Assembly: GCF_019933155.2 (NCBI RefSeq)
Contig: NZ_CP082944.1
Span: 4,714,001-4,778,000 of the forward strand
Direction: 5' to 3'
DNA: 64,000 bases
DNA from: Metabacillus dongyingensis
GTDB lineage: Bacteria > Bacillota > Bacilli > Bacillales > Bacillaceae
Below the pieces are notes generated by a model, which was not told where the DNA came from, did no database searches, and was given only the letters and a program-made list of their open reading frames with translations. Every line of letters begins with the position of its first letter. Positions within the stretch are counted from its first letter, which is position 1. The translations under genes were made by a program, and so were the position numbers. Positions 1-34,118 of the stretch are shown here, piece by piece.

Positions 1-755
1 ACCACTCCGCCATCAATATAAAGGGGGGACCCCATCATAAACTTCGATTCATCTGATGCCAGGTAAAGCGCAGCAAAAGCAACATCCTCAGGCTTGCCTA
101 ATCCTCCGCTTAATTGACGTGTTTTTATTTTCTCAATGGCTTCCTCTGGATCAGCATAGGACTCTTTTAAATAAGTTTCTACAAATGGAGTTAAGATTGT
201 ACCAGGCAAGAGCGCATTAACACGGATATTATAAGGAGCATAATCAACTTGCATCGACTTCGTCAGTGCTAAAACTGCTCCTTTCGAAGCAGAATAAGAT
301 GCTCGATTGCCTAACCCAATTTCTGCTATGCATGATGACATATTTATAATGGATCCCTTTTTTTGATCCATCATATAAGGCAATACAAATTTGCTAGGGA
401 GCATAACCCCATTGATATTTACGCGAATTGTTTGATCCCATTCGTTTAGGTTGGTTTCGTGAAGTTTTCCGACACCGCTAATTCCAGCATTATTAAAAAG
501 AACATCGATTCGTTTATATTTATTTATTGCTTCTTCAACCATAGTTTTCACGGAAATGGGATTTGTTACATCAGCTTGTAAAAAAAATGCATCTCCTCCA
601 AATTCAATAATTTCTGATACAGTTTTACCGCCTTTTACTGAATCCAGGTCATTTACAACGACTGACGCACCTTCTCTTGCAAATAATAATGCCGAAGACT
701 TCCCAATGCCAGAACCTGCCCCGGTTATGAGAACTACCTTATCTCTCAATCTCAT
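1..755 (-). CDS. SDR-family oxidoreductase, 3' end beyond the window
   Basis: This is an NAD(P)-dependent short-chain dehydrogenase. The translation begins MRLRDKVVLITGAGSGIG, which is the Rossmann cofactor motif TGxxxGxG. It continues with an NNAG motif and an active-site YSASK (Tyr-x-x-x-Lys). About 251 codons are visible, and the end lies off the left edge; the reading frame reaches a YIDGG motif typical of the SDR C-terminus. I chose the ATG at 753-755 because AAAGGAG precedes it at good spacing. It follows a second SDR after 22 bp, so the two are co-transcribed. The substrate is not visible. Next to a UxaA-like dehydratase and an alpha-fucosidase, a sugar, sugar lactone or keto-deoxy acid dehydrogenase is likely (inference). 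Confidence 0.85.
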   Translation of the reverse strand, partial: MRLRDKVVLITGAGSGIGKSSALLFAREGASVVVNDLDSVKGGKTVSEIIEFGGDAFFLQADVTNPISVKTMVEEAINKYKRIDVLFNNAGISGVGKLHETNLNEWDQTIRVNINGVMLPSKFVLPYMMDQKKGSIINMSSCIAEIGLGNRASYSASKGAVLALTKSMQVDYAPYNIRVNALLPGTILTPFVETYLKESYADPEEAIEKIKTRQLSGGLGKPEDVAFAALYLASDESKFMMGSPLYIDGGV

Positions 756-777
756 AATACGCTAAACTCCTTTGCTA

Positions 778-1572
778 TTAATGTTCCAGGCGGTCTTCTG
801 GCTGAGCTGCTTTTACTGTTAAACCGCCATCGACCATTAATAAATGGCCATTGATTTGATCGGCTTCATTTGAAGCCAGAAAAACAACGGCATCTCCTAT
901 TTGCCTTGCTGTTCCCAAACGCTTCATTGGATTTGCCTCTGTTTCCTTTTGTCTGATCTCTGGATCAGATAGAAAGTCCGTGCACATATCTGTATCCACA
1001 GTGCTTGGGCCGACAGCATTCACATTAATGTTATACCTCCCCAGTTCAATGGCCAGCCCCTTAGTCAACATATGCCCTGCTGCTTTTGAGGCTTGATAAT
1101 GCGGTATGACAGGGCTTGTTACCATTAAGCTTGCTGTGGATAAAATATTAATGATTTTCCCGCTCCTCTTTGGAATCATTCTCCTGGCTGCTGATTGAGA
1201 AGTGAGATAGATTGCCTTCACATTTGTATTAAAGGTTCGGTCCCAAGTATCTTCGGAGAGCTGCATAAACGATTCAAAAGGAGCAATTCCGGCATTGTTA
1301 ACTAGAATATCTATTTCCCCTAGTGATTCTTCAACTAATGCTACCATTTCTTCCACATCGTTTTTCTTGCCTGCATCGGCTTTAATTACAATTGCTTTTC
1401 TTCCAATTGCTTCTACTCTTTTTTTCACATCGTTTGCTTGAATGCGTGAACGTTCAGAGTTAAAATTAATGGCGATGTTTGCCCCTTCTTCTGCTAACCT
1501 AATAACAATCGCTTCACCTATTCCCCTGCTTCCGCCAGTAACCAAAGCAACCTTATCCAGTAATCTATTCAT
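778..1572 (-). CDS. SDR-family oxidoreductase
   Basis: This is a 264-residue classical SDR. It has the cofactor-binding TGGSRGIG motif near residue 13, NNAG near residue 90, catalytic YQASK near residue 158, and a C-terminal MVDGG. The length is normal for the family. It lies between the partial SDR downstream (22 bp gap) and the UxaA-like gene upstream (21 bp gap), all read leftward. Two SDRs beside a sugar-acid dehydratase fit an oxidative, non-phosphorylating route for a hexose or deoxyhexose such as L-fucose: one SDR oxidising the free sugar and one a keto-deoxy acid. That pathway assignment is inference, and the order of reactions cannot be read from the sequence. Confidence 0.85.
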   Translation of the reverse strand: MNRLLDKVALVTGGSRGIGEAIVIRLAEEGANIAINFNSERSRIQANDVKKRVEAIGRKAIVIKADAGKKNDVEEMVALVEESLGEIDILVNNAGIAPFESFMQLSEDTWDRTFNTNVKAIYLTSQSAARRMIPKRSGKIINILSTASLMVTSPVIPHYQASKAAGHMLTKGLAIELGRYNINVNAVGPSTVDTDMCTDFLSDPEIRQKETEANPMKRLGTARQIGDAVVFLASNEADQINGHLLMVDGGLTVKAAQPEDRLEH

Positions 1573-1593
1573 CTCCTTTAATCCCTCCCTGTC

Positions 1594-2754
1594 CTACAAA
1601 CTGATGCCTATACGGCTAATGCTGAATTCTTGATGCCCAAGAATCTCGGCTTTTGTCAAATGACCTGAAGAAACGTTTACTATTTCGTTGAATAATCGTT
1701 TTCCAGCTAGATCTAGATTTTCTTTTCCTGTTAATACTGTACTGACATCAACATCAATATTATCTGACATTCTTCTTGCCATCTCTTCATTACCAGAGAT
1801 TTTTATCACTGGTACAATTGGGTTGCCAGTAGGTGTTCCACGCCCAGTAGTAAAGCAAACTAATTGAATTCCAGCTGCTGCCATACCTGAAACACATTCA
1901 ATATCATTCCCCGGAGAGTCCATAAAATAAAATCCTTTTCCAGGTATTTCACTTGCATAATCTACTACCCCCTGCAATGGAGCTGTCCCTGCTTTGCTTA
2001 TACACCCTAAGGATTTTTCCTCTATGCTGGACAATCCACCTTCAATATTTCCTGGACTGGGGTTGCCGCCGCGCATATCTACACCCATTCTATTAATTTC
2101 TTCTTCAAACCGGGCGATTGATTGATAGAGTTTGTTTTTAACGTCATTGTTCACTGCTTTTTCTGCTAAAATATGTTCAGCTCCTATTATTTCAGTGGTT
2201 TCCCCCATCACAATGCTTCCGCCTTCTTGAATAATAAGATCCGATGCTCTTCCAAGTACTGGGTTACTGCACAAGCCTGATGTTGCATCAGATCCTCCGC
2301 ATTTAACTCCTACTATGAGCTCTGATAATGGAATATCCACCAATGGGGTGTTTTTAATCTCATTTATTAACTGATCTGCTATTTCTATTCCTTTATGAAT
2401 TGTATTTACAGATCCGCCTTCTTCCTGAATATCGATCCAAACAACTGGTTTTCCGGTTTCTGCAATTTCTTTTTGAATTTGTTTCGCATCCATCACTTCG
2501 CAGCCAAGGCTGACTAATAGAACAGCTCCAACATTGGGGTTTCTTCCCATGCCTACAAGGACCTTATGTGTTCGATCTTTGTCTTCGCCTACTTGGCTGC
2601 AGCCATGCTGATGAGGGATGGCAATTGACCCTGGGATCTGCTGTTGAATTTTTGTTACAACTTGATTTGCACATACTACTGTGGGCATTAGCAGCAAATG
2701 ATTTCTTATGCCGCTCTTTCCGTTCGGACGACGGTATCCTTTAATGGCTGCCAT
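1594..2754 (-). CDS. UxaA-family sugar-acid dehydratase (altronate/galactarate dehydratase C-terminal type)
   Basis: The 386-residue product matches the large catalytic domain of altronate hydrolase and galactarate dehydratase. It starts with the family signature GYRRPNGKSGIRNHLLLMPT and has Cys and His residues in HQHGCSQ, plus KCGGSDATSGL. These enzymes dehydrate aldonic or aldaric acids to 2-keto-3-deoxy acids. The small N-terminal SAF domain of full-length UxaA or GarD is absent, so a separate SAF subunit is expected and may lie beyond the left edge. The start overlaps the GH125 stop by 14 bp and has AAAGGAGA upstream, indicating translational coupling. With a fucosidase and two SDRs nearby, a fuconate-type substrate is a reasonable guess but is unproven. 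Confidence 0.8.
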   Translation of the reverse strand: MAAIKGYRRPNGKSGIRNHLLLMPTVVCANQVVTKIQQQIPGSIAIPHQHGCSQVGEDKDRTHKVLVGMGRNPNVGAVLLVSLGCEVMDAKQIQKEIAETGKPVVWIDIQEEGGSVNTIHKGIEIADQLINEIKNTPLVDIPLSELIVGVKCGGSDATSGLCSNPVLGRASDLIIQEGGSIVMGETTEIIGAEHILAEKAVNNDVKNKLYQSIARFEEEINRMGVDMRGGNPSPGNIEGGLSSIEEKSLGCISKAGTAPLQGVVDYASEIPGKGFYFMDSPGNDIECVSGMAAAGIQLVCFTTGRGTPTGNPIVPVIKISGNEEMARRMSDNIDVDVSTVLTGKENLDLAGKRLFNEIVNVSSGHLTKAEILGHQEFSISRIGISL

Positions 2755-4489
2755 TGATATTCTCCTTTAAATTTGATTGATCTCCTCTGCCGCGAATGCC
2801 TATTAAATTATGTACATGAACATGTTCCCCGTCTTCTATATCAGCTGTTGCCCGTCCAATAACTTCCCCATATTTTATGATTTCTTCACCTTCTATAATT
2901 TTCCGCAGGGCAAGTTTATGTCCAAATGGAGCAGCCTGTCTAGCCCTTAAAGTTTGAGGCTGACCGTCTATATCCATACTGAATGTAAGCAATTCATTTT
3001 TGTCTGCTCTTTTAAGCAGAGTGATAACGTTATCATTTTCATTCATGACAATACATGATATTTGAGATCCCTTTAATTGATTTACCGAATCCATGAAATA
3101 ATTCCCCCCTGAGAGCAATGAATTTCCAGTCTCATTTTTATAATTCAAATATAGATCAATTGTATAACTTTCTTTATTCTTGATAGAAAGATGTAACGGA
3201 CTCCCTTTCACCACTTTTCCACAAAGACTAAGAACAAATTCACTGAACATAGAATTGGACCAGGAAAACCATTCTCTCGTGTACTTTTCAGGCATATCTG
3301 CATGAAAACCTTCATGCATAAAACCCGTATTTCCATCTGTGGAAGTTAGTATCTTAAGAATATTCAACTTTTCTTCATATGAAACAGCAGTCATCCCTTG
3401 AATGGACAATGCAATAGGCCAGACATACTGTCCAGGAGTATGGGGACTTCCAATTCCTCTAGCCTTTACCCCTTCATAGTAATAGGGATTTTCCCGACTC
3501 AGTATATAGCTGCGCGTTTTTAGATAAGTTTCGTCCCTAAAACCTGTGTAACCAAGATAGGGGATAGATAATAAACTTGGAACATTTGCATCATCCATAA
3601 GGTTAAATCGCCCGAGCCCATCTGTTTCATAAGCATAAATAGAATCAAATACTGGATGATTAAAGACAGCATACTTTTCAATCCCTGTGTTAATTTCATC
3701 AGCAAGCTGCTCACAGGCTCGCTTCAGCTCCATATCCTTTATTACTTCGCCACATATCTCTGCAGCGTATTTTAATACAACAACTGCAAACATATTTGAC
3801 GGCACCAAAAATCCGTATAAACAAGCGTCATCACTTGGTCTGAAGCCGCTCCAAGTCATTCCCGTCTTCGCTGTTTTCGATCCCTTTCCATCACGTATTA
3901 GTGTGTCATAATAACGGTTGGTCTCTCTAATAAATGAATATGGGGAGTTATTTTCATGATCCTGTTCTGCCGTCCATACATTTAGAATCTTTTTCAATGC
4001 TTCAACAAATAAATGATCAAAGTGCTCCACTCTGCCTGTAGACTTCCAAAATAGGTAAGAGAGCTGAATAGGATAGCAGAGGGAATCAATTTCATATTTT
4101 CTCTCCCAAATTTCGGGAAGCATTTCTGTTTGATCAGTCTGATGCCCTTTTCCATTTGCAGATTCGTTAAAGGCATTGGCGTAAGGATCTATATTAATGA
4201 ACTGCAATTGACGTCTAATCACCCCTTCGATCATCTCAGCAATATTTTCGTCTTCTTCTGCTGCCATTAGATAAGGGCGCACCTGTGCTGCAGAGTCACG
4301 AAGCCACATAGCAGGAATATCACTAGTGATGACAAATGTTGTCCCATCCTTCTGAGACTTTAAAGTTGTTTCATACGTATTAACAAAGCATTGTTCAAAC
4401 ATCGTTTGCAGTTTTGCATCCTCAGGAAACGTTTCTTTAACAAGTGCAATTAACCTGTTTAGTGATGCTGGAATGACTTTATTTTTCAT
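2741..4489 (-). CDS. GH125 exo-alpha-1,6-mannosidase
   Basis: This 582-residue protein belongs to glycoside hydrolase family 125, metal-independent inverting exo-alpha-1,6-mannosidases acting on N-glycan and mannan arms. The family signature TSDIPAMWLRDS lies at residues 55-66, followed by NAFNE, a GMTWSGFRPSDD segment and an EWFSWSNSMFSE segment near the end of the barrel. The common catalytic core is roughly 430 residues, so the last 140 or so form an extra C-terminal domain. There is no signal peptide, so it should act in the cytoplasm on imported oligosaccharides. The ATG has AAGGGGGG eight bases upstream. It lies downstream of the fucosidase after a 139-bp gap that holds a long inverted repeat. 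Confidence 0.88.
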   Translation of the reverse strand: MKNKVIPASLNRLIALVKETFPEDAKLQTMFEQCFVNTYETTLKSQKDGTTFVITSDIPAMWLRDSAAQVRPYLMAAEEDENIAEMIEGVIRRQLQFINIDPYANAFNESANGKGHQTDQTEMLPEIWERKYEIDSLCYPIQLSYLFWKSTGRVEHFDHLFVEALKKILNVWTAEQDHENNSPYSFIRETNRYYDTLIRDGKGSKTAKTGMTWSGFRPSDDACLYGFLVPSNMFAVVVLKYAAEICGEVIKDMELKRACEQLADEINTGIEKYAVFNHPVFDSIYAYETDGLGRFNLMDDANVPSLLSIPYLGYTGFRDETYLKTRSYILSRENPYYYEGVKARGIGSPHTPGQYVWPIALSIQGMTAVSYEEKLNILKILTSTDGNTGFMHEGFHADMPEKYTREWFSWSNSMFSEFVLSLCGKVVKGSPLHLSIKNKESYTIDLYLNYKNETGNSLLSGGNYFMDSVNQLKGSQISCIVMNENDNVITLLKRADKNELLTFSMDIDGQPQTLRARQAAPFGHKLALRKIIEGEEIIKYGEVIGRATADIEDGEHVHVHNLIGIRGRGDQSNLKENINGSH

Positions 4490-4547
4490 AAATGATTCCC
4501 CCCTTGCATCCTAGTGTGATAATTTCATAGGGTCATATCTTTTCCTC

Positions 4548-4628: not shown

Positions 4629-5921
4629 TTATTTTAATTTGATCTCAATGACTGGAACTAAAACATCGGGTTTAATAACCGGGATTTCAAGAACCACTTC
4701 TCCATCTTCAACTACCGGTACGTTATGGTGGTGTATATCAGACTCCATATATTCATAGAATTTCACTTCGGAATGATCATGTAAAAATTGAACATATTCT
4801 ATTTTTCCTGCCAGTTCGCTTAGATGGATTGTCCTGAATGGCCAAGAAAAAATATGAAGATAAATAGTTTGATCTTTTTGGGTTAATCGGCAATCTGGAG
4901 GAGAAGGAAACTCACTTTCCCCTGCACCATATATGGATGACTCATGATACTTCATCCATTCTGAAATTCTTTCCATAATTTCCATCGATTTTAAATCCCA
5001 TTCTCCTCTGGCGGTTGGACCTATATTCAATAAAAGATTTCCATTTTTAGATACAGTATCGATCAGCATCTTTATGACCATTTCTGGCGACTTCCAATGA
5101 AGTTCATCCCGGTCATATCCCCAGCTTCCATTCAAGGTTTGACAGGCTTCCCACACGATATCTAAGCCGTCTTTTTTTATGGACCGTTTAGGCTGATATT
5201 GCTCGGGTGTATAAACACCCCGATTCAGATCCAGCCGATTATTTAAAATGATATGCGGCTGCAGTTTAAGAATTAATGCTTCAAGCTCCTCAGCCTTCCA
5301 ATCTTTTGCCCCTTTGCCTTTGGACCAGTCCCAGTCCCTGTCCGGATAGGAAAAATCAAACCATAGATAATCGATTTTCCCATAAGACGTTAACAATTCA
5401 TGAACTTGTTGATGCAGATATTGCACATACTGGTCAAACTCTCTTTTTTTAGCCTTTTCTTCTTCGTTTTCACGAAGTGAATGCAAGCCATCAATCGTAA
5501 ACTCAGGGTGATGCCAGTCGATGAGGGAATGATAGAACCCTATTTTTATTCCTTCCGCTCTGAACGCATCTGCAAACTCTCTTACAATATCTTTTCCATA
5601 GGGTGAATTTGTAACTTTATAGTCCGTTGCGTCTGAGTCCCACATGGCAAATCCTTCATGGTGTTTTGTTGTGAGAACAGCATATTTCATGCCTGCCTTT
5701 TTTGCATTTACAGCCCATTCCCTCGCGTTAAAAAGGTCGGGATTAAATCGATCCATGTATTTTTTGTATTGCTCTGGGTGTATTTTCTCTTTCGTCATCA
5801 CCCATTCATGTCTTGCAGGCAATGCATACAATCCCCAATGAATAAACAGACCAAATCGATCCTCTATAAACCACTGAAAATCTCCGTAATGATCTGGCCA
5901 GTCATATACGCGTTCCGTCAT
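4629..5921 (-). CDS. GH29 alpha-L-fucosidase
   Basis: The product (430 residues from the chosen start) is a family GH29 alpha-L-fucosidase, which releases L-fucose with retention. Visible signatures are RFGLFIHWGLYALPARHEW at the start of the barrel, TKHHEGFAMWDS, and KIDYLWFDFSYPD, in which the Asp near residue 189 occupies the nucleophile position. NLLLNIGPTARGEW closes the barrel, and a small beta domain follows. There is no signal peptide. The frame opens with a GTG at 5930, but AAGGAG sits exactly eight bases before the ATG at 5919-5921, so that ATG is preferred. Fucose released here could feed the two SDRs and the UxaA-like enzyme downstream (inference). Confidence 0.9.
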   Translation of the reverse strand: MTERVYDWPDHYGDFQWFIEDRFGLFIHWGLYALPARHEWVMTKEKIHPEQYKKYMDRFNPDLFNAREWAVNAKKAGMKYAVLTTKHHEGFAMWDSDATDYKVTNSPYGKDIVREFADAFRAEGIKIGFYHSLIDWHHPEFTIDGLHSLRENEEEKAKKREFDQYVQYLHQQVHELLTSYGKIDYLWFDFSYPDRDWDWSKGKGAKDWKAEELEALILKLQPHIILNNRLDLNRGVYTPEQYQPKRSIKKDGLDIVWEACQTLNGSWGYDRDELHWKSPEMVIKMLIDTVSKNGNLLLNIGPTARGEWDLKSMEIMERISEWMKYHESSIYGAGESEFPSPPDCRLTQKDQTIYLHIFSWPFRTIHLSELAGKIEYVQFLHDHSEVKFYEYMESDIHHHNVPVVEDGEVVLEIPVIKPDVLVPVIEIKLK

Positions 5922-5990
5922 AAACTCCACTCCTTCTTATTCCAAATACAATGCCCGCAGGCGGGATGTCATCTCTCATAAAGCAGATTG

Positions 5991-7049
5991 TTAAAAGGTT
6001 ACCTCTATGCCTTTTTCACTGGATTCATAGATTCCGCAAAGAATCTTCATTATCTCTACTCCATCCTGTACAGGACTAATCGGCTCTTTATTTTCAAGCA
6101 CGCATTCAACAAAATGATTGATTTCTGAATGAAAAGCTTCTGTAAAGTTAAAGGTTGCATGATTGATTTGAGGCGTAATATTAAGGATCGTATTGTTTTT
6201 CTCAGATATGATTTCTAAGGAAGGCTCTATTTCTGCTCCACCTTTATCCCCATAAATTTTTATTGTTGTCTCATCTTTTTTAGCATGCAGGGTGAAGCTT
6301 GAATCTACAAAAAGAGTAGCCCCATTTTCAAAGCGAATAAGAGCATTTGCCATATCTTCTACATTATTTTTTGTCGCGTCATAATCTGCAGCTTTATAAA
6401 AAGAGAGATTCTTAACATTTGAACGATTCCCTAATAAATCATAAGTGTTGCCTGAAATAGATTTGACCTTTGGGCGGCCCATTAAATACCAGCATAAATC
6501 TATTACGTGGACACCAATATCTATTAGTGGACCACCGCCGGAACGCTCCTTATCAGAAAACCATCCTCCCGGGTTTCCCAAACGGCGAATACTTGAAGCT
6601 TTTGCATAATAAATCACGCCGAGTTCTCCAGCTTCAATAAACGTTTTTAAAATTTGGGTATTGCTTGCAAACCTTCTTACAAATCCGACTTGAAGAATTT
6701 TCCCGCTTTTTTTGACTGCATCTTCAATTTCAAGAGCTTTTTCAACACTTGTGGTTAATGGTTTTTCAACTAAAACATGTTTTCCGGCATTCAGCGCTGC
6801 AATGGCAATTTCAGCATGTGTATTATTCCATGTGCATATACTGACAGCTTGTATTTCTCTGTCTTCTAATAGTTTTGTATAGTCCGTATAGTATTTTTCT
6901 GCATTGTATTTTTCTGCTGTTGTTTTTGCTCTTTCTTCGTTTAGATCGCACACAGCGTAAAGTTCTGCACACTCATGCATTGAAAAACTGCCTAAATGCA
7001 TTTCTGCAATTGAACCCGCACCAATAACCCCTATTTTAAGTTTCCTCAT
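5991..7049 (-). CDS. Gfo/Idh/MocA-family oxidoreductase
   Basis: This is a 352-residue NAD(P)-dependent sugar oxidoreductase with the N-terminal Rossmann motif GVIGAGSIAE. The conserved EKPLTTS motif lies near residue 93, followed by the C-terminal alpha/beta domain with GGGPLIDIGVHVIDL, where a His commonly takes part in catalysis. An upstream in-frame ATG exists at 7082, but GGAGGG lies just before the ATG at 7047-7049, which fits the family's N-terminus. The gene starts 23 bp after the stop of a TIM-barrel isomerase, a pairing typical of inositol and sugar oxidation clusters. The specific substrate cannot be read from sequence. Confidence 0.87.
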   Translation of the reverse strand: MRKLKIGVIGAGSIAEMHLGSFSMHECAELYAVCDLNEERAKTTAEKYNAEKYYTDYTKLLEDREIQAVSICTWNNTHAEIAIAALNAGKHVLVEKPLTTSVEKALEIEDAVKKSGKILQVGFVRRFASNTQILKTFIEAGELGVIYYAKASSIRRLGNPGGWFSDKERSGGGPLIDIGVHVIDLCWYLMGRPKVKSISGNTYDLLGNRSNVKNLSFYKAADYDATKNNVEDMANALIRFENGATLFVDSSFTLHAKKDETTIKIYGDKGGAEIEPSLEIISEKNNTILNITPQINHATFNFTEAFHSEINHFVECVLENKEPISPVQDGVEIMKILCGIYESSEKGIEVTF

Positions 7050-7072
7050 TGATAATCCCTCCGATTTAAAAT

Positions 7073-7930
7073 CTACTTCCATAACCTTTTAATATTGTTC
7101 AAACCAATTTCAATGGCCTTGAGGCAATCTTCCATGCCTTCAAATTCAAGTGAAATGTACCCGTCATACCCAAAAGATTTGAGAACTTGAATAATTCCTG
7201 AAATATCCAAATCACCTTGTCCTGCAATTGCACCTCTTAAAAAGTTTCCAGCACTTGTCTGGAAAAATCCTTCCCCGGGGAATTGAGTATGCGGACGGAT
7301 ATAAAAATCTTTAAAATGGACCATTGATGCTAAAGGAATCGTGCGTTTTACTGCAGATAATGGATCTTCATCCACACATAGAAAATTACCAATATCCAGA
7401 GTTGTTCTAAAGTTTTTTCTATCAACCGAGTGGACAATCTGTCTAATCCGGTCTGCATGCTGAACATGAAAACCATGATTTTCGATGCTGGTAATAATTC
7501 CATACTGTGCAGCATAGTCAGCAATTTCTCTGCAAGCCTTGATAATAATCGGCAAATCCTTCACAAACCGTTCAATAGAAGTATTTTCTTTTTCTCTTGA
7601 TGCAATATCATGGCGCATTCGCTTTACTCCAAGAGCATGTGCTATGTCAACCTGCATTTTCAGCTGTTCTATTTCTTGATTAAATTGAGCTTCATCTTTG
7701 TCAACGAAATTGGCGCCTACTGCATAATTAGAGATCTCAATCCCTGCTTCTTTTGCTTTTTCTACAATATCGCTAATCAATGCGCTATTATCACTTAGCG
7801 TAAAACCAATTGGGACGATTTCGATATGTTCTCCGCCATGTTCTTTAAGCCAATCAATCGCATCTAAAATGTTCATATTTCCTGATCGAAGTGCGGAATA
7901 AAAACTGTAAGAACTTACACCTAGTTTCAT
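7073..7930 (-). CDS. Sugar phosphate isomerase/epimerase, AP-endonuclease-2-like TIM barrel
   Basis: This 285-residue protein has the xylose-isomerase-like TIM barrel of sugar epimerases and IolE/IolI-type enzymes. It starts MKLGVSSYSF and carries metal-ligand candidates in HIEIVP, SIENHG, TLDIGNF and VHFKDF, ending with SLEFEG. The start at 7928-7930 follows GGAGG; an earlier in-frame ATG at 7978 has no ribosome binding site. The product is clearly paralogous to the protein encoded at 19174-20046, with matching blocks along its full length. It is probably the first enzyme gene after the transporter operon, from which it is separated by a stem-loop at 8009-8041. Confidence 0.82.
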   Translation of the reverse strand: MKLGVSSYSFYSALRSGNMNILDAIDWLKEHGGEHIEIVPIGFTLSDNSALISDIVEKAKEAGIEISNYAVGANFVDKDEAQFNQEIEQLKMQVDIAHALGVKRMRHDIASREKENTSIERFVKDLPIIIKACREIADYAAQYGIITSIENHGFHVQHADRIRQIVHSVDRKNFRTTLDIGNFLCVDEDPLSAVKRTIPLASMVHFKDFYIRPHTQFPGEGFFQTSAGNFLRGAIAGQGDLDISGIIQVLKSFGYDGYISLEFEGMEDCLKAIEIGLNNIKRLWK

Positions 7931-8008
7931 AGATAACCTCCATAGTATGAATGGGAAATGAGAAACAATTGAGATCAAGTATTTTTTATGTAAACCAAAT
8001 AATAGTAA

Positions 8009-8041: not shown

Positions 8042-8048
8042 AGACCTT

Positions 8049-9632: not shown

Positions 9633-9722
9633 AGTAATCCCCCTCATAATAATTAGATAGTAGTCTTGAACTTACCGCCGCTTTTTCTATCAGCATTCGC
9701 TGCCTCCAAAAAAAGCAGGCAT

Positions 9723-10610: not shown

Positions 10611-10626
10611 TCCAACACCCCTCTTT

Positions 10627-12554: not shown

Positions 12555-12567
12555 AAGGGGTGTTGCT

Positions 12568-19118: not shown

Positions 19119-19173
19119 TTTAACTCTCCTTCCTTTATAAGCAGTTCTGTTCAGTCATACTCACACTCTAAAA

Positions 19174-23754: not shown

Positions 23755-23848
23755 TTCCCCCACCATCCCATCAAACTTGTATAAGATTAATCATATTGTC
23801 TATGCTTCTTGTGCACAACAGGAAAATTGAAATTATTTTCTCGTTTAA

Positions 23849-26806: not shown

Positions 26807-26824
26807 TTCTGGTCGCTCCTTTCC

Positions 26825-27790
26825 TTAAACACTTGCTTCTCGTTCCATCAAATTGAGCCAGTTCATTTCCCCAGCCGTCAGCTTAATCACTGAACCTGTT
26901 ACTGATGACATTAATTCTTCTGAATTCTCCGGCCCTATGATGGCTGCCGTTTGGTATGGCTGATTCAACACATAAGCGAGTGCGATTTGAATAGCCGTAA
27001 CACCCTTCTCTTCAGCAAGCTTCTTAGCCCGTTCATACCTTTTCCAATTATCCTCGGTGTAATAGACCCGAACCATTTCTTCATGATCTTTTCTGTCAGG
27101 AGCAAATCTTCCGCTGAAGAAGCCGCCTGCTTGAGATGACCATGAGAGCAGCGGCATCTGTGAGCCTTTGTGCCAATTCTCCATGTGCTCATCCACTGAA
27201 ATACATCCGGGCCATCTTGGTTCCCTGCATTTTGCAAGGCTCAGGTTCGGACTATTAAAGGTAAACCCTATTAATCCGTGCGCTGCAGCATATTCATTTG
27301 CTTCCTGTATGCGCTGGTGCGACCAGTTTGAAGCCCCAATCGCATGAATTTGCCCTGCAGCAAGATGCTGATTTAAAACATCCATAATCACGCCAACCTC
27401 TACGCTTTCATCATCACGATGAAGGGCATAGAAATCAATATAGTCTGTATTCAATCGCTCTAGGCTTTCTGAGATATCTTTAGAAATGGCTGACGGATTT
27501 ACGCGGGGACCTGGTTCACCATCATCATGATGAGCCCCTTTTGTTAAAATATGAACCTCACTGCGATTCTTCCTCAAATCCAGCCATTCCCCAAAAATAA
27601 CCTCGCTGTCTCTGTACTGATGAGCCATATCAAACATATTTCCGCCTATTTTGAAGTACTCATCCAGCATATCGAATGCCTGCTGCCTGCTGTCATATTG
27701 ATAGAAATGAGCCGTCCCCATAATTAACCTTGAACATGCTTTCTCAACATATTTTTGATCGATAATTCCTTTTAAACTGTGAAATTCCAT
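26825..27790 (-). CDS. Aldo/keto reductase
   Basis: This 321-residue NADPH-dependent aldo/keto reductase carries the catalytic tetrad: Asp in GGNMFDMAHQY, Tyr in the same segment, Lys in ILTKGAHH, and His in YALHRDD. The cofactor loop near the end includes AYVLNQPYQTAAIIGPENSEEL. The N-terminal strand is unusual but the length is normal. It is translationally packed between the GDPD gene (13 bp) and a TIM-barrel isomerase (18 bp). It may reduce or oxidise a sugar intermediate produced by the pathway (inference). Confidence 0.87.
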   Translation of the reverse strand: MEFHSLKGIIDQKYVEKACSRLIMGTAHFYQYDSRQQAFDMLDEYFKIGGNMFDMAHQYRDSEVIFGEWLDLRKNRSEVHILTKGAHHDDGEPGPRVNPSAISKDISESLERLNTDYIDFYALHRDDESVEVGVIMDVLNQHLAAGQIHAIGASNWSHQRIQEANEYAAAHGLIGFTFNSPNLSLAKCREPRWPGCISVDEHMENWHKGSQMPLLSWSSQAGGFFSGRFAPDRKDHEEMVRVYYTEDNWKRYERAKKLAEEKGVTAIQIALAYVLNQPYQTAAIIGPENSEELMSSVTGSVIKLTAGEMNWLNLMEREASV

Positions 27791-27803
27791 TTAAAGGCCT
27801 CCT

Positions 27804-28559
27804 TTATGAATGATGAATCGTTCTTTCTCTTATCATGACGTCAGGCAGATTCGTGTCCATCGCGTCGATTTTCCATTCCTGAAGCGTTTTCCATACACGG
27901 ATATCGTCGCTCATGCTTCCATGCACATAATAGCGGGCCTGATGAAGCTCTTCTATTAAACTTGGAGATAATTGATTGATCGGCACATTTAATACTTGTG
28001 CCTGCAGTTCTTTCAAATAACGGACAGGATCTGCTAATCGCGAAGAGCAAATGACATTTGTGAGGATGTGCTTGCTGTGATTCCTAGCTTCAGCTAAGGA
28101 TGCATGGTTAAAGGACATGAGCTGGATTTGGTCTTCCATTTGATAGCTTCGGATTAAATCTGTGACTCTTTTAGCTAATGGTTCTTTCAGGTGCTCCATC
28201 TGCTTCAGTTCGATGCTGAGCACGATTTTCCCCTTTGCCCATGCTAAAACTTCCTCGAGTACCGGAATCTGTTCATCTGCAAACTCCTCTGAAAACCACA
28301 TACCTGCATCTAATTTTTTTAAATCAGATAAAGTGTGTTCACTCACAAATCCTGTTCCATTTGTTGTCCTCTCAAGTGAAAAATCATGGAAGACAACCGC
28401 ATGCCCGTCACTTGTCAGCTGGACATCAAGCTCAAGCATATCAGCCTGCAGCTCCAGGGCTTTGCTAAAAGACGACATCGTATTCTCCGGACAATACGCA
28501 GATGCACCGCGATGAGCGCCAATTAGAGCTCTGTTCTTGCCTTGAAAGATTCTATCCAC
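27804..28559 (-). CDS. Glycerophosphodiester phosphodiesterase family protein (GDPD/UgpQ type)
   Basis: This 251-residue GDPD-domain protein has the catalytic signature GAHRGASAYCPENT near residue 15, the metal ligands in LELDVQLTSDG, and FHDFSLERTTNGTG. The enzymes hydrolyse phosphodiesters such as glycerophosphoinositol and glycerophosphocholine. No signal peptide is present. The start is GTG after AGGTGAAAAG. In a sugar importer operon it could act on glycerophosphodiester or sugar phosphodiester groups brought in with the substrate. This, with the PHP protein next to it, is the main hint of a phosphate-decorated glycan. Confidence 0.88.
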   Translation of the reverse strand: MDRIFQGKNRALIGAHRGASAYCPENTMSSFSKALELQADMLELDVQLTSDGHAVVFHDFSLERTTNGTGFVSEHTLSDLKKLDAGMWFSEEFADEQIPVLEEVLAWAKGKIVLSIELKQMEHLKEPLAKRVTDLIRSYQMEDQIQLMSFNHASLAEARNHSKHILTNVICSSRLADPVRYLKELQAQVLNVPINQLSPSLIEELHQARYYVHGSMSDDIRVWKTLQEWKIDAMDTNLPDVMIRERTIHHS

Positions 28560-28574
28560 CTTTTCACCTGCTTC

Positions 28575-29822
28575 TTATGAAAAATAAATCGGATTGCTGA
28601 TGACAATTGGAGTGTCGGTTTCCGCGTCCCATAATTCAGCACGCACATATAAGCTGCTGTCTGGAATCTCAACAGTTCTAGACAATGTTCCTGCGGGTTT
28701 ATGGCTTTTAAAAACGTCCCCTTGATCCGTAATGATTTTCAAAAGACCGCCAGTACTTTCCGGAATATCAATTTTTATAAGTGTCCTGTCATGATTCCTT
28801 TTAAAAGTGCCGCCCATCAATGTCTCACCCGTCTGCATTTGAATCCAAGGGGAAGTTGGACGGCCGGCAATACTCACTTGGCCAGCTGTTAAAGCTTCTA
28901 ATAGCTTTCTTGGCGTATGCATATCCGAATAAATCCATGTCGTTGGCGTTCCATATTTAATGGTTTCATGAAGGCGATGGGTATCGCTTCCGCCTATCGC
29001 CACGATTTTCTTCCCTTGCTGCAATTGCAGATCCCACCATGTTAAAGCAGCTTGATTTTGCTTGCTCCAAGGGCCATTCCAAATCTCCACTATTTTCACA
29101 TCGAAATGCTCCAGGCCCCATTCCCACGAGCAAAACGAACAGTGCGGATGGTTGATGGAAATAACGGCGCCGTTTGCCATCCCTTCATCAAGCTTCTCTT
29201 GAACATCTTCCTTCGTTGCACAGCGAAAATCGGCAAAGGGCTTGTGCACGCCGTAAAAGTTGCAATGCCCGCGGTTTGTCGTCAGCTCAACTCCCGGAAT
29301 GACAGCCAGATCTTCAACCAGCGGATACTGGTAGTTTTGACTGAACGTATTATGATCCGTTAATGCCACAAAATCTAAATCAGCATGCCTGGCATTTTCG
29401 ACTACTTCTGCAAGAGTAAAGGCACCATCACTGTGATTGGAATGCAGGTGCAGATCCCCTTTCAACCATCTCTTTTCGCTCATCATAAGAGTGACTAAAA
29501 CATTGACCTCACACGCCACAGGAACACGGTAAGCATTCAGGATGACCCCCCACTCGCCGGCAGGAAGTTCGCCTAACGTGTAGCCTGGTGTCGCACGGTC
29601 TTCACGGACAAAAATATCCTTGCGGGCACCGCCGCTCCACCCCTTAAAACCATTGGGATCCTCCAAACCCAAGTCAATAATATTTTCATCAGCATGACTG
29701 AAAGACAGCTCTACCTTTATTTCTTCAATATCGTCCGGGACAGAGAAAGGTAAAGTGATGTACTCGCCCTGCTGAGAATGTTCAATCCACTTAGACAGGG
29801 TGACTTTGTGAACCTGGCTCAC
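28575..29822 (-). CDS. PHP-domain metallohydrolase, CehA/McbA type
   Basis: This 415-residue protein has a beta-sandwich-like N-terminal domain (about 1-125), then a PHP metallophosphoesterase domain opening with KGDLHLHSNHSDGAFT. Further metal ligands appear in ALTDHNTF, IPGVELTT, INHPHC and GGSDTH. A C-terminal beta segment follows. PHP enzymes hydrolyse phosphoesters with a multinuclear metal site. The GTG start overlaps the permease stop as GTGA, so the two are translationally coupled. Pairing with GDPD in one operon suggests successive hydrolysis of a phosphodiester and the resulting monoester (inference). Confidence 0.85.
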   Translation of the reverse strand: MSQVHKVTLSKWIEHSQQGEYITLPFSVPDDIEEIKVELSFSHADENIIDLGLEDPNGFKGWSGGARKDIFVREDRATPGYTLGELPAGEWGVILNAYRVPVACEVNVLVTLMMSEKRWLKGDLHLHSNHSDGAFTLAEVVENARHADLDFVALTDHNTFSQNYQYPLVEDLAVIPGVELTTNRGHCNFYGVHKPFADFRCATKEDVQEKLDEGMANGAVISINHPHCSFCSWEWGLEHFDVKIVEIWNGPWSKQNQAALTWWDLQLQQGKKIVAIGGSDTHRLHETIKYGTPTTWIYSDMHTPRKLLEALTAGQVSIAGRPTSPWIQMQTGETLMGGTFKRNHDRTLIKIDIPESTGGLLKIITDQGDVFKSHKPAGTLSRTVEIPDSSLYVRAELWDAETDTPIVISNPIYFS

Positions 29823-30673
29823 GATTCTTTTCCTCCCGAACCCAGTCCTCCCAGTCCTTGCTCAAATAGAGGCTGTAGAATAAAGTACAAAATAATCATC
29901 GGCAAAGCTGCAGTAGTTGCCCCCGTCATGATTAACGGCCAATCGATGTTATATTGGCCCTGGAATGCTTTAAGAGCTATCTGTATCGTGTACATTTCCT
30001 GCGATCTCGCAATCGTCAATGGCCATAAATACTCGTTCCAGTGACTCAGGAAGCTAAAGATTGCCACTAATGCGATCGCCGGTTTATTTAAAGGCATGAT
30101 CACTTTCCAATAAATTTGAAACTTTGAGCAGCCGTCAATCGTTGCCTGCTCATCCAATTCTCTTGGTATGGCAAGGAAGTTCTGACGCATCAGAAAAATG
30201 GCAAAGCCTGTGACTGCAAAGGGAAGAATGAGTCCCACATAGGAATCAAGCCATCCATCAGGCCCAGCGAACGGTACATTTTTCATCATGAAAAAGAGCG
30301 GAACAACCATTAAGCCAGAAGGAATCATCATCGTCGCAAGCACTAAGAGGAAAAGCTTATCTCTTCCCGGAAATGTCAGTCTTGCAAAGGCAAAAGCCGC
30401 CAACGACGCAAATAACACGTTAATAATTGTAGCTAAAGCTGATACGATAAAGCTGTTTAAGAAAGCTCTCGGCAAGTTTGTTTCCTGCCAGATTCTCAGG
30501 AAATTTTCCCAATGAAATTCTGTTGGCAAAATTTTGGGCGGCCAAACCATGACATCACCCTGAGACTTCACGGCCGTCATCAGCATCCAAATATATGGAC
30601 CTAAAAACACGAATAAGACAAACGTCAGCAAAAAATACAGGATGAAGTTTTTCAGGATTTTTGACTTTTTCAT
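29819..30673 (-). CDS. ABC sugar transporter permease, MalG-like
   Basis: This is a 284-residue CUT1 permease with six predicted helices. The EAA loop is DEQATIDGCSKFQIYWKVIMP, with the family's invariant Gly. The C-terminus QPLFEQGLGGLGSGGKES is typical of MalG/UgpE-type permeases. It starts five bases after the partner permease stop and overlaps the PHP gene by four bases. It has no ATPase gene beside it. Confidence 0.9.
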   Translation of the reverse strand: MKKSKILKNFILYFLLTFVLFVFLGPYIWMLMTAVKSQGDVMVWPPKILPTEFHWENFLRIWQETNLPRAFLNSFIVSALATIINVLFASLAAFAFARLTFPGRDKLFLLVLATMMIPSGLMVVPLFFMMKNVPFAGPDGWLDSYVGLILPFAVTGFAIFLMRQNFLAIPRELDEQATIDGCSKFQIYWKVIMPLNKPAIALVAIFSFLSHWNEYLWPLTIARSQEMYTIQIALKAFQGQYNIDWPLIMTGATTAALPMIILYFILQPLFEQGLGGLGSGGKES

Positions 30674-30678
30674 CGAAT

Positions 30679-31596
30679 TTAGTCCTTTCCGGATAGCTTT
30701 AATTGAAGCCAGGTCACTGCAAGCAAGAATGGGAATAGAACAAGTGACAGTGCAGCTCCATAGCCAACATAGTTAAATTCAAACGACTGCTGCCAAATAT
30801 GTTTAATGACTACCATCGTGCTGTCCATCGGTCCGCCGTTTGTCAAAATATCTACAACCGCTACGACCTGGAACGATCCAATGACAGACATAACCATGGT
30901 GTAAACTAATATATGGGTGATCGATGGCAGTGTAATATGTATAAACTGCTTCCAGGAATTAGCTCCATCAATCCTTGCTGCTTCATATAAAGATTGAGGA
31001 ACGGCCTGAAGGGCTGCCAAGAAAATCGGGATATTATAAGCTGTGCCTCTCCATGCTCCAATCAGAATCAGAATGATCATCGCTGTAGCCGGCTGCAAAA
31101 GCCAGGCCGGCGGTGTTTCGACACCTGCAACCTTCAGCAAATAGTTAAGGATGCCCAGGTTATTATCAAACACCCACAAAAAGATCATGGCTGTAATCAC
31201 CTCAGAGGTGATCGTCGGCAGAAAATAAAACACTTTAAAAAATCGTAAGCCTCTAAGCTTTCTATTAAGAAGCACAGCAACGGCAATCGCGCCGCCCAGC
31301 CCTAAAAACATGGAACCGGCTGTATAAACGATTGTGTTTCCGAGACTCTTAATGAAAAGCTTGTCTTGAAGCATTTGAGAAAAGTTCTTTAAGCCAGTAA
31401 ACACAGCGGGATTAGGCAGGCTGTAATCATGAAAGCTCAGCCAAATTAAATAGAGAATAGGCGCTATGGAGAATATAAATAAGAAACTAAGTGCAGGTAA
31501 AACAAATAGATAAGACCCGATATAATCTTTTAATTTATGAAACTCTTTTTTCGTTTTTATTTCAGTATTCATTTGAGAAGCCATTTCTGTTTTCAT
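30679..31596 (-). CDS. ABC sugar transporter permease, MalF-like
   Basis: This is a 305-residue CUT1 permease of the MalF/UgpA type with an EAA loop YEAARIDGANSWKQFIHITLP. I use the ATG at 31594-31596 because AAGGGAG lies eight bases upstream; earlier in-frame starts at 31653 and 31602 have poor spacing. It follows the binding-protein gene after 73 bp containing a strong stem-loop, a common arrangement that keeps binding protein in excess over the permeases. Confidence 0.88.
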   Translation of the reverse strand: MKTEMASQMNTEIKTKKEFHKLKDYIGSYLFVLPALSFLFIFSIAPILYLIWLSFHDYSLPNPAVFTGLKNFSQMLQDKLFIKSLGNTIVYTAGSMFLGLGGAIAVAVLLNRKLRGLRFFKVFYFLPTITSEVITAMIFLWVFDNNLGILNYLLKVAGVETPPAWLLQPATAMIILILIGAWRGTAYNIPIFLAALQAVPQSLYEAARIDGANSWKQFIHITLPSITHILVYTMVMSVIGSFQVVAVVDILTNGGPMDSTMVVIKHIWQQSFEFNYVGYGAALSLVLFPFLLAVTWLQLKLSGKD

Positions 31597-31617
31597 TATC
31601 ATCACTCCCTTTAAAGG

Positions 31618-31645
31618 GAAAGGGCATGTCTTCACATACCCTTTC
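31618..31645 (-). promoter_or_regulatory. Intra-operon stem-loop after the binding-protein gene
   Basis: GAAAGGGCATGT and ACATACCCTTTC form a 12-bp stem (one G-U pair) with a CTTC loop. No U-run follows on the minus strand. It sits between the binding-protein stop and the MalF-like start and probably stabilises the upstream mRNA. Confidence 0.55.
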
Positions 31646-31669
31646 AAAATCAACTCTTTTTAAAAGTAT

Positions 31670-32992
31670 CTATTTAGCTGAATTAACAGCCTTTTCGGCA
31701 ATTCCCTGTGCCTCGTCCAGCGTTTTTTGCGGATCAGCCCCGTCAAACACAGCACGCAAAGCTTTACCCCATGCATCATTTGCTTCTGGATACGCTTCCA
31801 ATTTATACGGTACAGCCTCTTGCAGCGTCTCTACATATGGCTTCAATAATGGATCACTGTACATTTCATCTTCATATAAATGTGTTTTCACCGGATGACG
31901 GCCTTGCTCTTTAGCTAACCGAATTCCATACTTGTCTGAAACAAACCATTTCATCAGCTCAAAGGAAGCGACTTTGTTTTTAGATCCCTTTGGAACAAAC
32001 AAGCTGCCTCCTCCCAATACAGAACCATTTCCATCGCCAGGAAGCGGAGCTGTTGCAAGGTCTTTATAGGAATCTGGAAACTCATTTTTAATTCTTGCGA
32101 TATCCCAAGGTCCAGAAATGAAGGAAACAGCTCTTCCTGTTCCAAACATCGCTACAGGATGATCGGTTTGTCTTTCTTGCGGCGGAGGAACAGGAGATGA
32201 TTTATCCTCCGTTGCTAAGCCTGTATATTTCGCCATGGTTTCAACAATCTTTGGATCATTCAGATTTGCTGTCACCTTGTCCCCATCAAACTTCAGCGTG
32301 TTCGTTCCCGCTGCGATGACATTTCCGAAGAAACTCCATCCGCTCGCACTCGTCACGATTCCATATCTGGATCCATCTTTCTTTGTCAGTTTCTTTGAAA
32401 CAGTCACTAACTCATCAAGCGTTTTAGGCGCTTCTTTGATGCCGTTCTCTTCAAAAACCTTTTTGTTATACAAGTAGATTGTAGTATTTACATCAATCGG
32501 CATTCCGTATTTAACACCTTCCCAGGTCGTATCTTCAATACCGCCTGGAACAAATTTATCCTCTTCGCCCCACTCTTCCCACAGATCATCAACCGGTTCA
32601 GCAAGACCCTGTGCACCCATTGCAAAGGCATGGGCATGAGCCATATCAGGAACCGCTCCACTGGAAACCGCAAGCTTTACTTTATTGCTCATATCTCCCC
32701 ATTCAATTCCAACCGTTTTAATTGAAATGTTCGGATAGACTTCCTTAAATTCCTTGATTGCATCTTGAATTGGAGCTGTATTGGCATAGTCAGCTGCCAG
32801 CCAAATTTCCAAATCCGTTTTCCCCAATTCTCCAACCTTTTCATTAAACTCCGGCAAGCCGTCTGCCGCTAAATCGCGATCCGGTGCCTTTACAGGTTCC
32901 GTTTTCCCGCCGCCCGAGCTGCCCGTGCTCGATTGACACCCTGATAAAACAAGAAAAACAGCAAGTACTAAAAATATCAGTTTTTTCATCAT
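31670..32992 (-). CDS. Extracellular solute-binding lipoprotein of a CUT1 importer
   Basis: This 440-residue sugar-binding protein has a lipoprotein signal with lipobox VLSGC at about residue 19 and a Ser/Gly-rich linker. The body shows the family 1 binding-protein pattern (LEIWLAADY, DMAHAHAFAM, TTIYLYNKKVFEENG, FISGPWDI). It is the first structural gene after the LacI-type regulator gene (100 bp gap) and heads the importer, phosphoesterase and glycosidase operon. GGGGGG precedes the start; the second Met at 32989 is equally possible. The ligand is unknown; context suggests a mannosyl or phospho-mannosyl oligosaccharide. Confidence 0.88.
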   Translation of the reverse strand: MMKKLIFLVLAVFLVLSGCQSSTGSSGGGKTEPVKAPDRDLAADGLPEFNEKVGELGKTDLEIWLAADYANTAPIQDAIKEFKEVYPNISIKTVGIEWGDMSNKVKLAVSSGAVPDMAHAHAFAMGAQGLAEPVDDLWEEWGEEDKFVPGGIEDTTWEGVKYGMPIDVNTTIYLYNKKVFEENGIKEAPKTLDELVTVSKKLTKKDGSRYGIVTSASGWSFFGNVIAAGTNTLKFDGDKVTANLNDPKIVETMAKYTGLATEDKSSPVPPPQERQTDHPVAMFGTGRAVSFISGPWDIARIKNEFPDSYKDLATAPLPGDGNGSVLGGGSLFVPKGSKNKVASFELMKWFVSDKYGIRLAKEQGRHPVKTHLYEDEMYSDPLLKPYVETLQEAVPYKLEAYPEANDAWGKALRAVFDGADPQKTLDEAQGIAEKAVNSAK

Positions 32993-33020
32993 AATCCCCC
33001 TGTTAATCGTTGTTAATTAC

Positions 33021-33034
33021 TGTAAGCCCTTACA
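33021..33034. promoter_or_regulatory. cre-like palindrome upstream of the binding-protein gene
   Basis: TGTAAGCCCTTACA has perfect TGTAAG/CTTACA arms and matches the cre consensus at 13 of 14 positions. It lies 28 bp before the binding-protein start, between the lacI-type gene and the operon. A second small palindrome, GAATCTCGATAGATTC, is at 33047-33062. Confidence 0.45.
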
Positions 33035-33092
33035 ATTTAGTATGTAGAATCTCGATAGATTCCTGGTCTCCCCTCCTCTCATGCTTCATCCA

Positions 33093-34118
33093 TTACGCTT
33101 CTTGATGCTTCATATCTTGACAAGAATCGCGAATAACCAGCTTTGCAGGGATTGTTCTGATTCTTGGAACAAGCTGTTTGTTCAGCATATTAATCAGAAC
33201 CTCAGCCGCTTCCTCCCCCAGCTTCTCAGGAAACAGCTCGACACTCGTTAAGTTAGGAGTCGTCTCAAGAGCCAGGGTCTCATTATTGCTCAAAGCAATC
33301 AGGGAAACATCTCCCGGAATATCCACTTCCATTTCCCTTGCGGCTCTCATTACCCCAAGTGCAACACGATCCGAATCCGCAATGACCGCTGTATACTTCT
33401 TCTCATTTATCTTTTCTAAAAAAGAAACATACCCATATTCAGATGCGTTTGAAAAGGTCGATTGATCATAATAAACAACATTCCCCTCGTCAAACGGCAT
33501 ATTGTAATTATCATAGGCCTGCATCAGCCCAGCTTTTCTGTCCTCTGCTACCGTCATATGATAAGAAGCATTTAAAAACAAAATCTCGCGATGGCCATTG
33601 CCGATTAAATATTCCCCGACCTCTTTCGCCATTTCAATATTGTTATTATCTACACATTTGATATCCATGTCCGTTCTGTCTGGCCGCCCGATCAGGACAA
33701 AGGGCATGCTGGAATCCCTGTATTGCACAATACGCGCATCATCTTCACGGGGATTTAATAGAATCACACCGTCAACAGGATCCCTTGAAAAGTTCGTTTG
33801 GTCGTCTCCTTCATAAATGCGGTCCAAAAGAACCCGGTATCCGCTTTCCGAAGACTTTTTCACAACCCCATTAATCACTTTCGTTTCAAAGCTGCTTAAC
33901 TCATAATCTTTGACAGTCGGCATCTTAAGACCAATAATCATTGTCTTTTTAATAGCCAGACTTCTCGCCATGTGATTGGGAACATAATTCAATTCCTTTG
34001 CAACCCGAATCACACGCTTTGTCACATCCTCACTTATCGGACGCTTCTTGCTGAATACATTCGAAACCGTACTTTTAGATACACCAGCCTGCTTTGCTAC
34101 ATCACCTATTGTGACCAT
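33093..34118 (-). CDS. LacI-family transcriptional regulator
   Basis: This 341-residue repressor has the LacI helix-turn-helix at residues 2-25 (TIGDVAKQAGVSKSTVSNVF), the hinge helix (NHMARSLAIKKT), then a periplasmic-binding-protein-like effector domain. I chose the ATG at 34116-34118 with GAGGAG upstream. An earlier in-frame ATG at 34157 would lie within the operator. The gene precedes the importer operon in the same direction and may be its first cistron. Two identical operator-like palindromes, one just after the promoter and one at the untranslated leader, indicate autoregulation and control of the operon by an imported sugar. Confidence 0.9.
   Translation of the reverse strand: MVTIGDVAKQAGVSKSTVSNVFSKKRPISEDVTKRVIRVAKELNYVPNHMARSLAIKKTMIIGLKMPTVKDYELSSFETKVINGVVKKSSESGYRVLLDRIYEGDDQTNFSRDPVDGVILLNPREDDARIVQYRDSSMPFVLIGRPDRTDMDIKCVDNNNIEMAKEVGEYLIGNGHREILFLNASYHMTVAEDRKAGLMQAYDNYNMPFDEGNVVYYDQSTFSNASEYGYVSFLEKINEKKYTAVIADSDRVALGVMRAAREMEVDIPGDVSLIALSNNETLALETTPNLTSVELFPEKLGEEAAEVLINMLNKQLVPRIRTIPAKLVIRDSCQDMKHQEA

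Follow-up and report, generated by a model that had tools for sequence, protein, structure and literature searches.

Bacterial loci that join endo-β-N-acetylglucosaminidases (ENGases) of glycoside hydrolase (GH) family 85 to other glycosidases and an importer for N-glycan use are already known, and the GH85 enzymes of bacteria are, according to a review, usually extracellular (PMC10154615). Here, we analyse a locus of this type in Metabacillus dongyingensis, whose genome comprises 5.4 Mb on two contigs; the window is the whole stretch of 64,000 nucleotides under analysis (C1:4714001-4778000). Two features set the locus apart from the known type: a GH85 enzyme without a signal-like N-terminus, and a candidate operon for L-fucose oxidation. 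The most interesting point is the clade of signal-less GH85 proteins to which the enzyme belongs, coupled here with putative fucose salvage. No described bacterial cytoplasmic GH85 was recognised in the literature excerpts searched, which is no proof that none has been published.

In Streptococcus pneumoniae, GH125, GH38, GH29, ROK, GH85 and importer genes are linked to N-glycan use (PMC5215778). The locus with the EndoD enzyme and the ABC-NG importer has GH125, GH29, ROK, an importer and a GH38 or GH38-like gene in common with the window. EndoD is secreted and wall-anchored, whereas the window GH85 is signal-less; the pneumococcal locus also carries GH92 and GH20C, families not represented among the window proteins scanned, and the candidate fucose oxidation operon of the window is a further difference. 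Islands of Bifidobacterium likewise join GH125, GH38 and GH85 (PMC8406136), although the characterised bifidobacterial ENGases have one or two transmembrane helices (PMC6109692), unlike the window GH85.

Cytoplasmic dismantling has been proposed for Man3GlcNAc2 (Man, mannose; GlcNAc, N-acetylglucosamine) in Cutibacterium acnes with GH38, GH5_18 and GH20 (PMC6160142). The import of a GlcNAc2 core and its breakdown inside the cell, which we infer here from genes, resemble that system; C. acnes opens the core by GH20 and GH5_18, the window would do so by GH85. The alf-2 cluster of Lactobacillus casei imports Fuc-α-1,6-GlcNAc-Asn (Fuc, fucose) and excretes fucose (PMC6960285); a cytoplasmic GH29 for core-fucosylated N-glycan remnants and a sugar kinase are the points of likeness, whereas L. 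casei uses a glycosylasparaginase and excretes fucose, and the source genome has candidate genes to oxidise fucose and lacks a PF01112 match. The non-phosphorylating L-fucose pathway of Xanthomonas campestris (PMC5080750) and Campylobacter jejuni (PMC6946681) shares with the window set the steps of mutarotase, dehydrogenase, lactonase and dehydratase and those that come after. The X. campestris dehydratase is of the enolase type and the C. jejuni last step is proposed to be of the DapA type, as against UxaA-type and FAA-type candidates in our locus, where the genes are also linked to GH29 and GH125.

A GH85 clade without signal-like N-termini

Gene identities were taken from Pfam and NCBIfam profile scans of 30 window proteins. 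The GH85 protein (20124-22145, minus strand) scores 228 bits against PF03644 (cut-off 22.2) and 44.6 bits for its GH85_C domain (cut-off 27). Its residues N184 and E186 are invariant in all 35 aligned GH85 proteins and align with the same motif in 3fha; the catalytic role of this Asn and Glu is as named in PMC10154615. The presence of GH85, GH125 and GH29, as claimed by an earlier reading made from the sequence only, is borne out with scores far above the Pfam cut-offs.

Export was judged from the most hydrophobic stretch of 12 residues among the first 45, by hydropathy score, a proxy and not SignalP. The maxima were -0.40 for GH85, 1.12 for a DUF5054 protein, 1.19 for a 1034-aa glycosidase, 1.42 for GH29 and 1.48 for GH125. 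The binding proteins of the two importers reached 2.25 and 3.62, and a secreted GH85 elsewhere in the genome 3.31. By this proxy, five glycosidases are without a signal-like N-terminus and both binding proteins have one, in agreement with the sequence-only reading. The open frame of the window GH85 holds 684 aa, 673 of them listed, and leaves no room for a hidden signal.

To place this enzyme, a quick GH85 tree of 120 rows was built from 112 of the 119 listed database matches besides the window protein, the window protein itself, the secreted GH85 of the same genome and six proteins from fetched loci; seven N-terminally truncated rows were omitted, and start codons were taken as others had predicted them. 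A signal-like N-terminus was present in 74 rows and missing from 46. The window GH85 falls in a clade of 21 rows (Shimodaira-Hasegawa-like approximate likelihood ratio test, SH-aLRT, 96), all 21 of them signal-less; six of its 20 other rows carry organism names, which are Paenibacillus, Bacillus or Sporosarcina. A separate signal-less clade of 18 rows (SH-aLRT 100; including P0200, P0201 and P0205) has 16 named rows, all Streptomyces, and the remaining seven signal-less rows are scattered over the tree. The signal label requires six changes on this tree, at least five of them forced by starred branches, and none of 500 shuffles was as low.

Signal-less GH85 of the window type is rare near the source genome. 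Matches at E <= 1e-60 occur in 14/397 genomes of the order, the source genome included, and those of the 13 others share 33-40% identity and come from frames 884-1038 aa long. Within the family, six of 80 genomes match PF03644; full-length matches are confined to the source genome and its congener G005 (G- and L-numbers denote comparison genomes and loci), the other four being partial at 22-24 bits. The window gene set was absent from 80 named GH85 loci compared; these hold different GH85 genes, for the most part more distant ones.

GH125, GH29 and a candidate fucose oxidation pathway

The GH29 α-L-fucosidase (4629-5930, minus strand; PF01120, 291 bits) is the sole PF01120 match found by a search of the source genome, and its nearest solved chain is 6gn6_A (1.5e-116). 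Downstream of it lies the GH125 exo-α-1,6-mannosidase (2741-4489, minus strand; PF06824, 527 bits, cut-off 23), whose frame continues into a SAF domain (21.6 bits), the small part of a two-part UxaA/galactarate-type dehydratase. The large part lies at 1594-2754 (minus strand; PF20629, 331 bits; PF04295, 141 bits), and the enzyme is a candidate L-fuconate dehydratase. The fused GH125-SAF frame was seen in the source genome only; G005 has separate frames for GH125 (444 aa) and the small part (117 aa), and a functional fusion as a general feature was rejected.

In the 3' direction from GH29 and GH125, the dehydratase is followed by two short-chain dehydrogenases (SDRs; 778-1572 and 3-755, minus strand), an FAA hydrolase (L003:18941-19873), a FucU-type mutarotase (18495-18944) and a fuconolactonase relative (17610-18443), the last three beyond the window. 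The SDRs may serve as L-fucose 1-dehydrogenase and 2-keto-3-deoxyfuconate dehydrogenase; we infer the sugar acid of this arm from the neighbouring GH29, mutarotase and lactonase. At the level of families, each step of L-fucose oxidation thus has a candidate in the left operon, a pathway that the sequence-only reading had missed. FucI had no match in the source genome, and three of 14 control genomes matched.

GH29 matches at E <= 1e-90 were found in 10/398 genomes of the class, the source genome included; five of the nine others were fetched. G506 has the nearest GH29 relative found (63%), with an SDR (43%) and a fuconolactonase relative (42%) 6.5-8 kb off. The GH29 loci of G463 and G634 have a ROK neighbour, that of G708 has a distant FucU-type match (27%), and the GH29 of G546 is broken by one stop. 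We take the candidate fucose pathway as the strongest pointer to core-fucosylated glycans as the substrate.

A second N-glycan cluster with a secreted GH85

The same genome carries a second cluster at 1.037 Mb (L004/L112) with GH38, GH125, a secreted GH85, DUF624, a second GH38, a histidine kinase and response regulator, an importer, GH1 and ROK. Its GH85 has a signal-like N-terminus and PKD and F5/8 domains. A strategy unlike the usual secreted one, as first proposed, thus fits the window GH85 and not the genome as a whole; judged from these gene sets, the cytoplasmic strategy would be an addition to the secreted GH85 system and not its replacement.

GH85 stretches were read in six of the 13 other GH85-bearing genomes of the order. 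GH85, GH38 and GH125 stand together in five of the six (G272, G202, G370, G375 and G359; not G155), and, like the secreted cluster of the source genome, these five have GH85, GH38, GH125 and an importer in common with the window. The GH85 of these secreted clusters differs from that of the window by a signal and extra PKD and F5/8 domains, and the GH29 reference found no match in any of the six stretches read (0/6), whose GH85 frames are all of secreted size. In G202, the secreted cluster has as neighbours (L127:742-2718) a relative of a window Gfo/Idh/MocA oxidoreductase (64%) and one of the TIM barrel at 19174 (78%), so that these window genes may belong to N-glycan use.

The second contig of the source genome (L153:1739-12000) carries LacI, importer, GH13, DUF1861, GH130 and GH2-mannosidase-type genes; the GH13/DUF1861/GH130/GH2-mannosidase-type set is 72-90% identical to one beside the N-glycan genes of G272. 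Candidates for β-mannosidic bonds therefore exist outside the window.

The DUF5054 importer unit

The GH38-like protein of the sequence-only reading is a DUF5054 protein (23917-26034, minus strand; PF16477, 258 bits) that also exceeds the GH38N cut-off (28.2 bits, cut-off 25), and a structural model with a fold search predicts a GH38 α-mannosidase fold. H14, D16 and D131, invariant in all 14 rows aligned, are candidates for the zinc ligands and nucleophile of GH38 enzymes. No literature was found under the name DUF5054.

Outside the genus, the DUF5054 importer unit stands without GH85 in all 13 stretches read. The units of G272, G300 and G190 have their own LacI and importer, and the smallest one read, that of G190, is without the GDPD, reductase and TIM barrel. 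In G272 (L120, L121), the unit lies ~27 kb from a GH85 cluster and is immediately followed by the myo-inositol catabolism genes IolG, IolC, IolA and IolE, all over cut-off, and an IolB relative below it. In G619, a partial GH38 relative (55%) lies directly downstream of DUF5054. Going by these gene neighbourhoods, we regard the unit as a module of its own, which may act on something other than an N-glycan. As an assayable candidate, the window protein offers access to a GH38-fold family without an assigned function.

Proposed route and alternative explanations

In the route that we propose, in its substrate, order of steps, cellular location and regulation alike, importer 1 would take in oligomannose or paucimannose glycans with the GlcNAc2 core whole, as free glycans or still attached to Asn or a short peptide; candidate suppliers are peptide:N-glycanase (PNGase), proteolysis to glycopeptides, and other organisms. 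A cytoplasmic GH85 would cut the chitobiose bond and so release Man(n)GlcNAc from a stub of GlcNAc or Fuc-GlcNAc, GH125 and GH38-type enzymes would strip α-mannose, and GH29 would release fucose from the stub. Fucose would then pass through mutarotase, dehydrogenase, lactonase, UxaA-type dehydratase, second dehydrogenase and FAA-type hydrolase to pyruvate and lactate. The ROK protein would phosphorylate one of the sugars set free, and a β-mannoside or β-galactoside may be the target of the 1034-aa enzyme. The DUF5054 unit would separately import a related mannoside and hydrolyse it with its GH38-fold protein.

When GH85 is secreted, GlcNAc or Fuc-GlcNAc stays behind on the extracellular protein, and what the enzyme delivers is Man(n)GlcNAc. 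For a GH85 in the cytoplasm to make sense, glycans must enter with both GlcNAc residues; the Fuc-GlcNAc stub would then arise inside, open to GH29 and the fucose operon. This would account for finding the sole GH29 and the putative fucose oxidation set here instead of in the cluster with the secreted GH85. We consider it somewhat probable that the GH85/GH125/GH29 part carries out cytoplasmic N-glycan dismantling with fucose salvage beside the secreted GH85 system. Import followed by cytoplasmic dismantling, as put forward from the sequence alone, is therefore retained as the best reading for these three enzymes, with the 21/21 signal-less clade in its favour, and is not extended to the DUF5054 unit. 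With a member of the signal-less clade and a secreted GH85 in one genome, import of N-glycans with two GlcNAc residues and recovery of core fucose become directly testable.

Several observations weigh against this reading. The window row sits on a long branch (0.71) in the quick GH85 tree. None of the equivalog cut-offs is reached in the fucose arm, with 131 bits of the 141 required for the mutarotase, 262 of 400 for the lactonase, 248 of 500 for the rhamnonate-type hydrolase, 218 of 400 for SDR2 against L-rhamnose 1-dehydrogenase and 254 of 731 for the dehydratase against galactarate dehydratase; the SDRs (223 and 235 bits) pass only the cut-off of a general 'glucose 1-dehydrogenase' subfamily (215). 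In G005 the arm is damaged (L109:17773-18613), with SDR1 truncated to 108 of 251 residues and only a 35-residue remnant of the FAA hydrolase found, which speaks against strict retention of the pathway. Neither GH92 nor GH20 is among the 30 window proteins scanned; GH20 was not searched genome-wide. PF01112 glycosylasparaginase has no match in the source genome, while five of 14 controls match, which argues against full use of glycoasparagine, one of the substrates first suggested. Lastly, an extracellular role has been argued for SpGH92 of S. pneumoniae, which has no known signal (PMC5215778), so that a missing signal does not prove where an enzyme acts.

By analogy with SpGH92, GH85 and the other glycosidases could leave the cell through lysis or non-classical export and act extracellularly. 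We hold this improbable, given the classical signal on the other GH85 of the same genome and the signal-less N-termini throughout the 21-row clade. A weightier alternative, possible though short of probable, is a composite island in which independent sugar-import modules, namely a fucoside/mannoside operon, the GH85 unit and the DUF5054 unit, lie adjacent and serve different substrates. Each importer has its own regulator, the 13 stretches without GH85 and the self-contained units of G272, G300 and G190 show the DUF5054 unit standing apart, and the large glycosidase comes from a broad family (771 matches at E <= 0.001 among 7990 candidates scored). Conservation of the whole gene order in G005 speaks for a joint role instead, as do the ~27 kb between the DUF5054 unit and GH85 in G272 and the GH38 relative beside DUF5054 in G619.

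The DUF5054 unit might, alternatively, import mannosylated phosphodiester-linked inositol or glycerol compounds, such as pieces of glycosylphosphatidylinositol (GPI) anchors, phosphomannan or inositol phospho-glycolipids, with GDPD and PHP splitting the phosphodiester and DUF5054 the mannoside. The unit has a GDPD, a PHP-type protein and an aldo-keto reductase, besides a TIM barrel with weak likeness to IolE; these would suit such a role, as would the predicted GH38 fold and the Iol genes of G272. Inositol-operon relatives were, however, found in one of the 13 stretches, and the G190 unit dispenses with GDPD, reductase and TIM barrel. The inositol reading, strong in G272 and not in the 12 other stretches, was accordingly set aside and is kept as an unlikely rival.

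Returning to cytoplasmic N-glycan dismantling, a wider and distinctly tentative proposal would be that cytoplasmic GH85 evolved at least twice in bacteria, in the window clade and in the Streptomyces clade, comparable to eukaryotic cytosolic ENGase, and that it is paired here with whole-glycan import, an internal Fuc-GlcNAc stub and the burning of its fucose. In this proposal DUF5054 proteins would form a GH38-fold family apart, served by a dedicated importer, and act on mannosides that are phosphorylated or linked to inositol.

Layout of the locus and remaining genes

The gene block runs from its right edge at 34157 to the left edge of the window and ~2.3 kb further, almost wholly on the minus strand. 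The sequence-only reading had taken it as one 34-kb block; order is indeed kept in G005, while the block consists of several units, parts of which lie apart in other genomes, and the left operon extends beyond the window. The gene set was thus found in a related genome, in the same order and at 92-100% protein identity apart from the damaged fucose arm and one 75-residue TIM-barrel piece at 88%. In G005, an RpiR regulator, a GH4 gene and a phosphotransferase system (PTS) module lie between DUF5054 and ROK (L108:10920-14877) and are not in the window.

Between GH29 and the large glycosidase lie a Gfo/Idh/MocA oxidoreductase (5991-7082), an AP_endonuc_2 TIM barrel (7073-7978) and importer 1 (8049-11646), all on the minus strand. 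Importer 1 consists of two PF00528 permeases and a binding protein with a lipoprotein-like N-terminus that matched no Pfam or NCBIfam model. Divergent from it, on the plus strand (11937-14787), are a DUF624 membrane protein and an AraC-type regulator with a Cache domain (12568-14787), the only plus-strand genes of the block. Two AP_endonuc_2 TIM-barrel proteins (18222-20046, minus strand) precede GH85 in coordinate order. Beyond DUF5054, all on the minus strand, come a TIM barrel, an aldo-keto reductase, a GDPD phosphodiesterase and a CehA/McbA-type PHP metallohydrolase (26060-29822), importer 2 (29819-32992) with two permeases and a lipoprotein-like binding protein with weak NCBIfam matches, and a LacI-type regulator (33093-34157). 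Pfam thus confirms the two ATP-binding cassette (ABC) importers first reported.

The sequence-only reading had counted three regulators. The 303 aa of the ROK-family protein (22855-23766, minus strand; PF00480, 227 bits) have no helix-turn-helix (HTH) match, and the best NCBIfam matches of the protein, all below cut-off, are sugar kinases; it is probably a sugar kinase, which leaves two regulators, AraC and LacI. Between GH85 and ROK, a 52-bp tandem repeat in eight copies (22360-22787) is missing from the G005 equivalent, which spans 375 bp against 710 here. Terminator-like hairpins lie 3' of DUF5054 (23885-23854, minus strand) and of ROK (22838-22810, minus strand), with weak support, as the region holds 15 hairpins against 14.7 in shuffles. 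Terminator scans gave 12 against 12.1 and 15 against 14.7 in shuffles, promoter scans 46 against 61.7 and 44 against 46.0, and catabolite-responsive element (cre) sites, with eight matches against 4.9 expected and 14 of 100 shuffles as high, were not relied on.

The 1034-aa glycosidase (14854-17958, minus strand) had been placed in clan A as a large enzyme. The GH42 profile PF02449 matches over 95 residues only (39 bits), and the predicted fold is GH42/GH164-like: in a model with a predicted local distance difference test (pLDDT) score of 85.6, Foldseek gave target-normalised template-modelling (TM) scores of ~0.7 to GH42 β-galactosidases, the GH164 β-mannosidase Bs164 and a β-1,2-glucosyltransferase, the fold being equally near GH42 and GH164. 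E492 and E657, invariant in 40/40 rows, are presumably the catalytic pair, as in clan A enzymes. Three pairs of a large glycosidase and a GH85 come from contigs of equal size (P0005/P0123, P0084/P0129 and P0054/P0126, the last 13,374 bp), and this equality of size suggests that the large glycosidase is linked with window-like GH85 in relatives; P0126, a truncated row, is not in the tree. The window gene is an assayable candidate for a large GH42/GH164-like family common in Bacillales and Paenibacillus.

Elsewhere in the window, an alginate-lyase-family protein (34676-35863) adjoins a 774-aa protein with Y_Y_Y repeats (36115-38259), which is encoded by long DNA repeats with periods of 297 and 342 bp. 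An epsC RNA element (47117-47228; 52.9 bits, gathering threshold 42) lies beside genes with a glycosyltransferase and a MurJ-type flippase, and this gene set is probably for exopolysaccharide.

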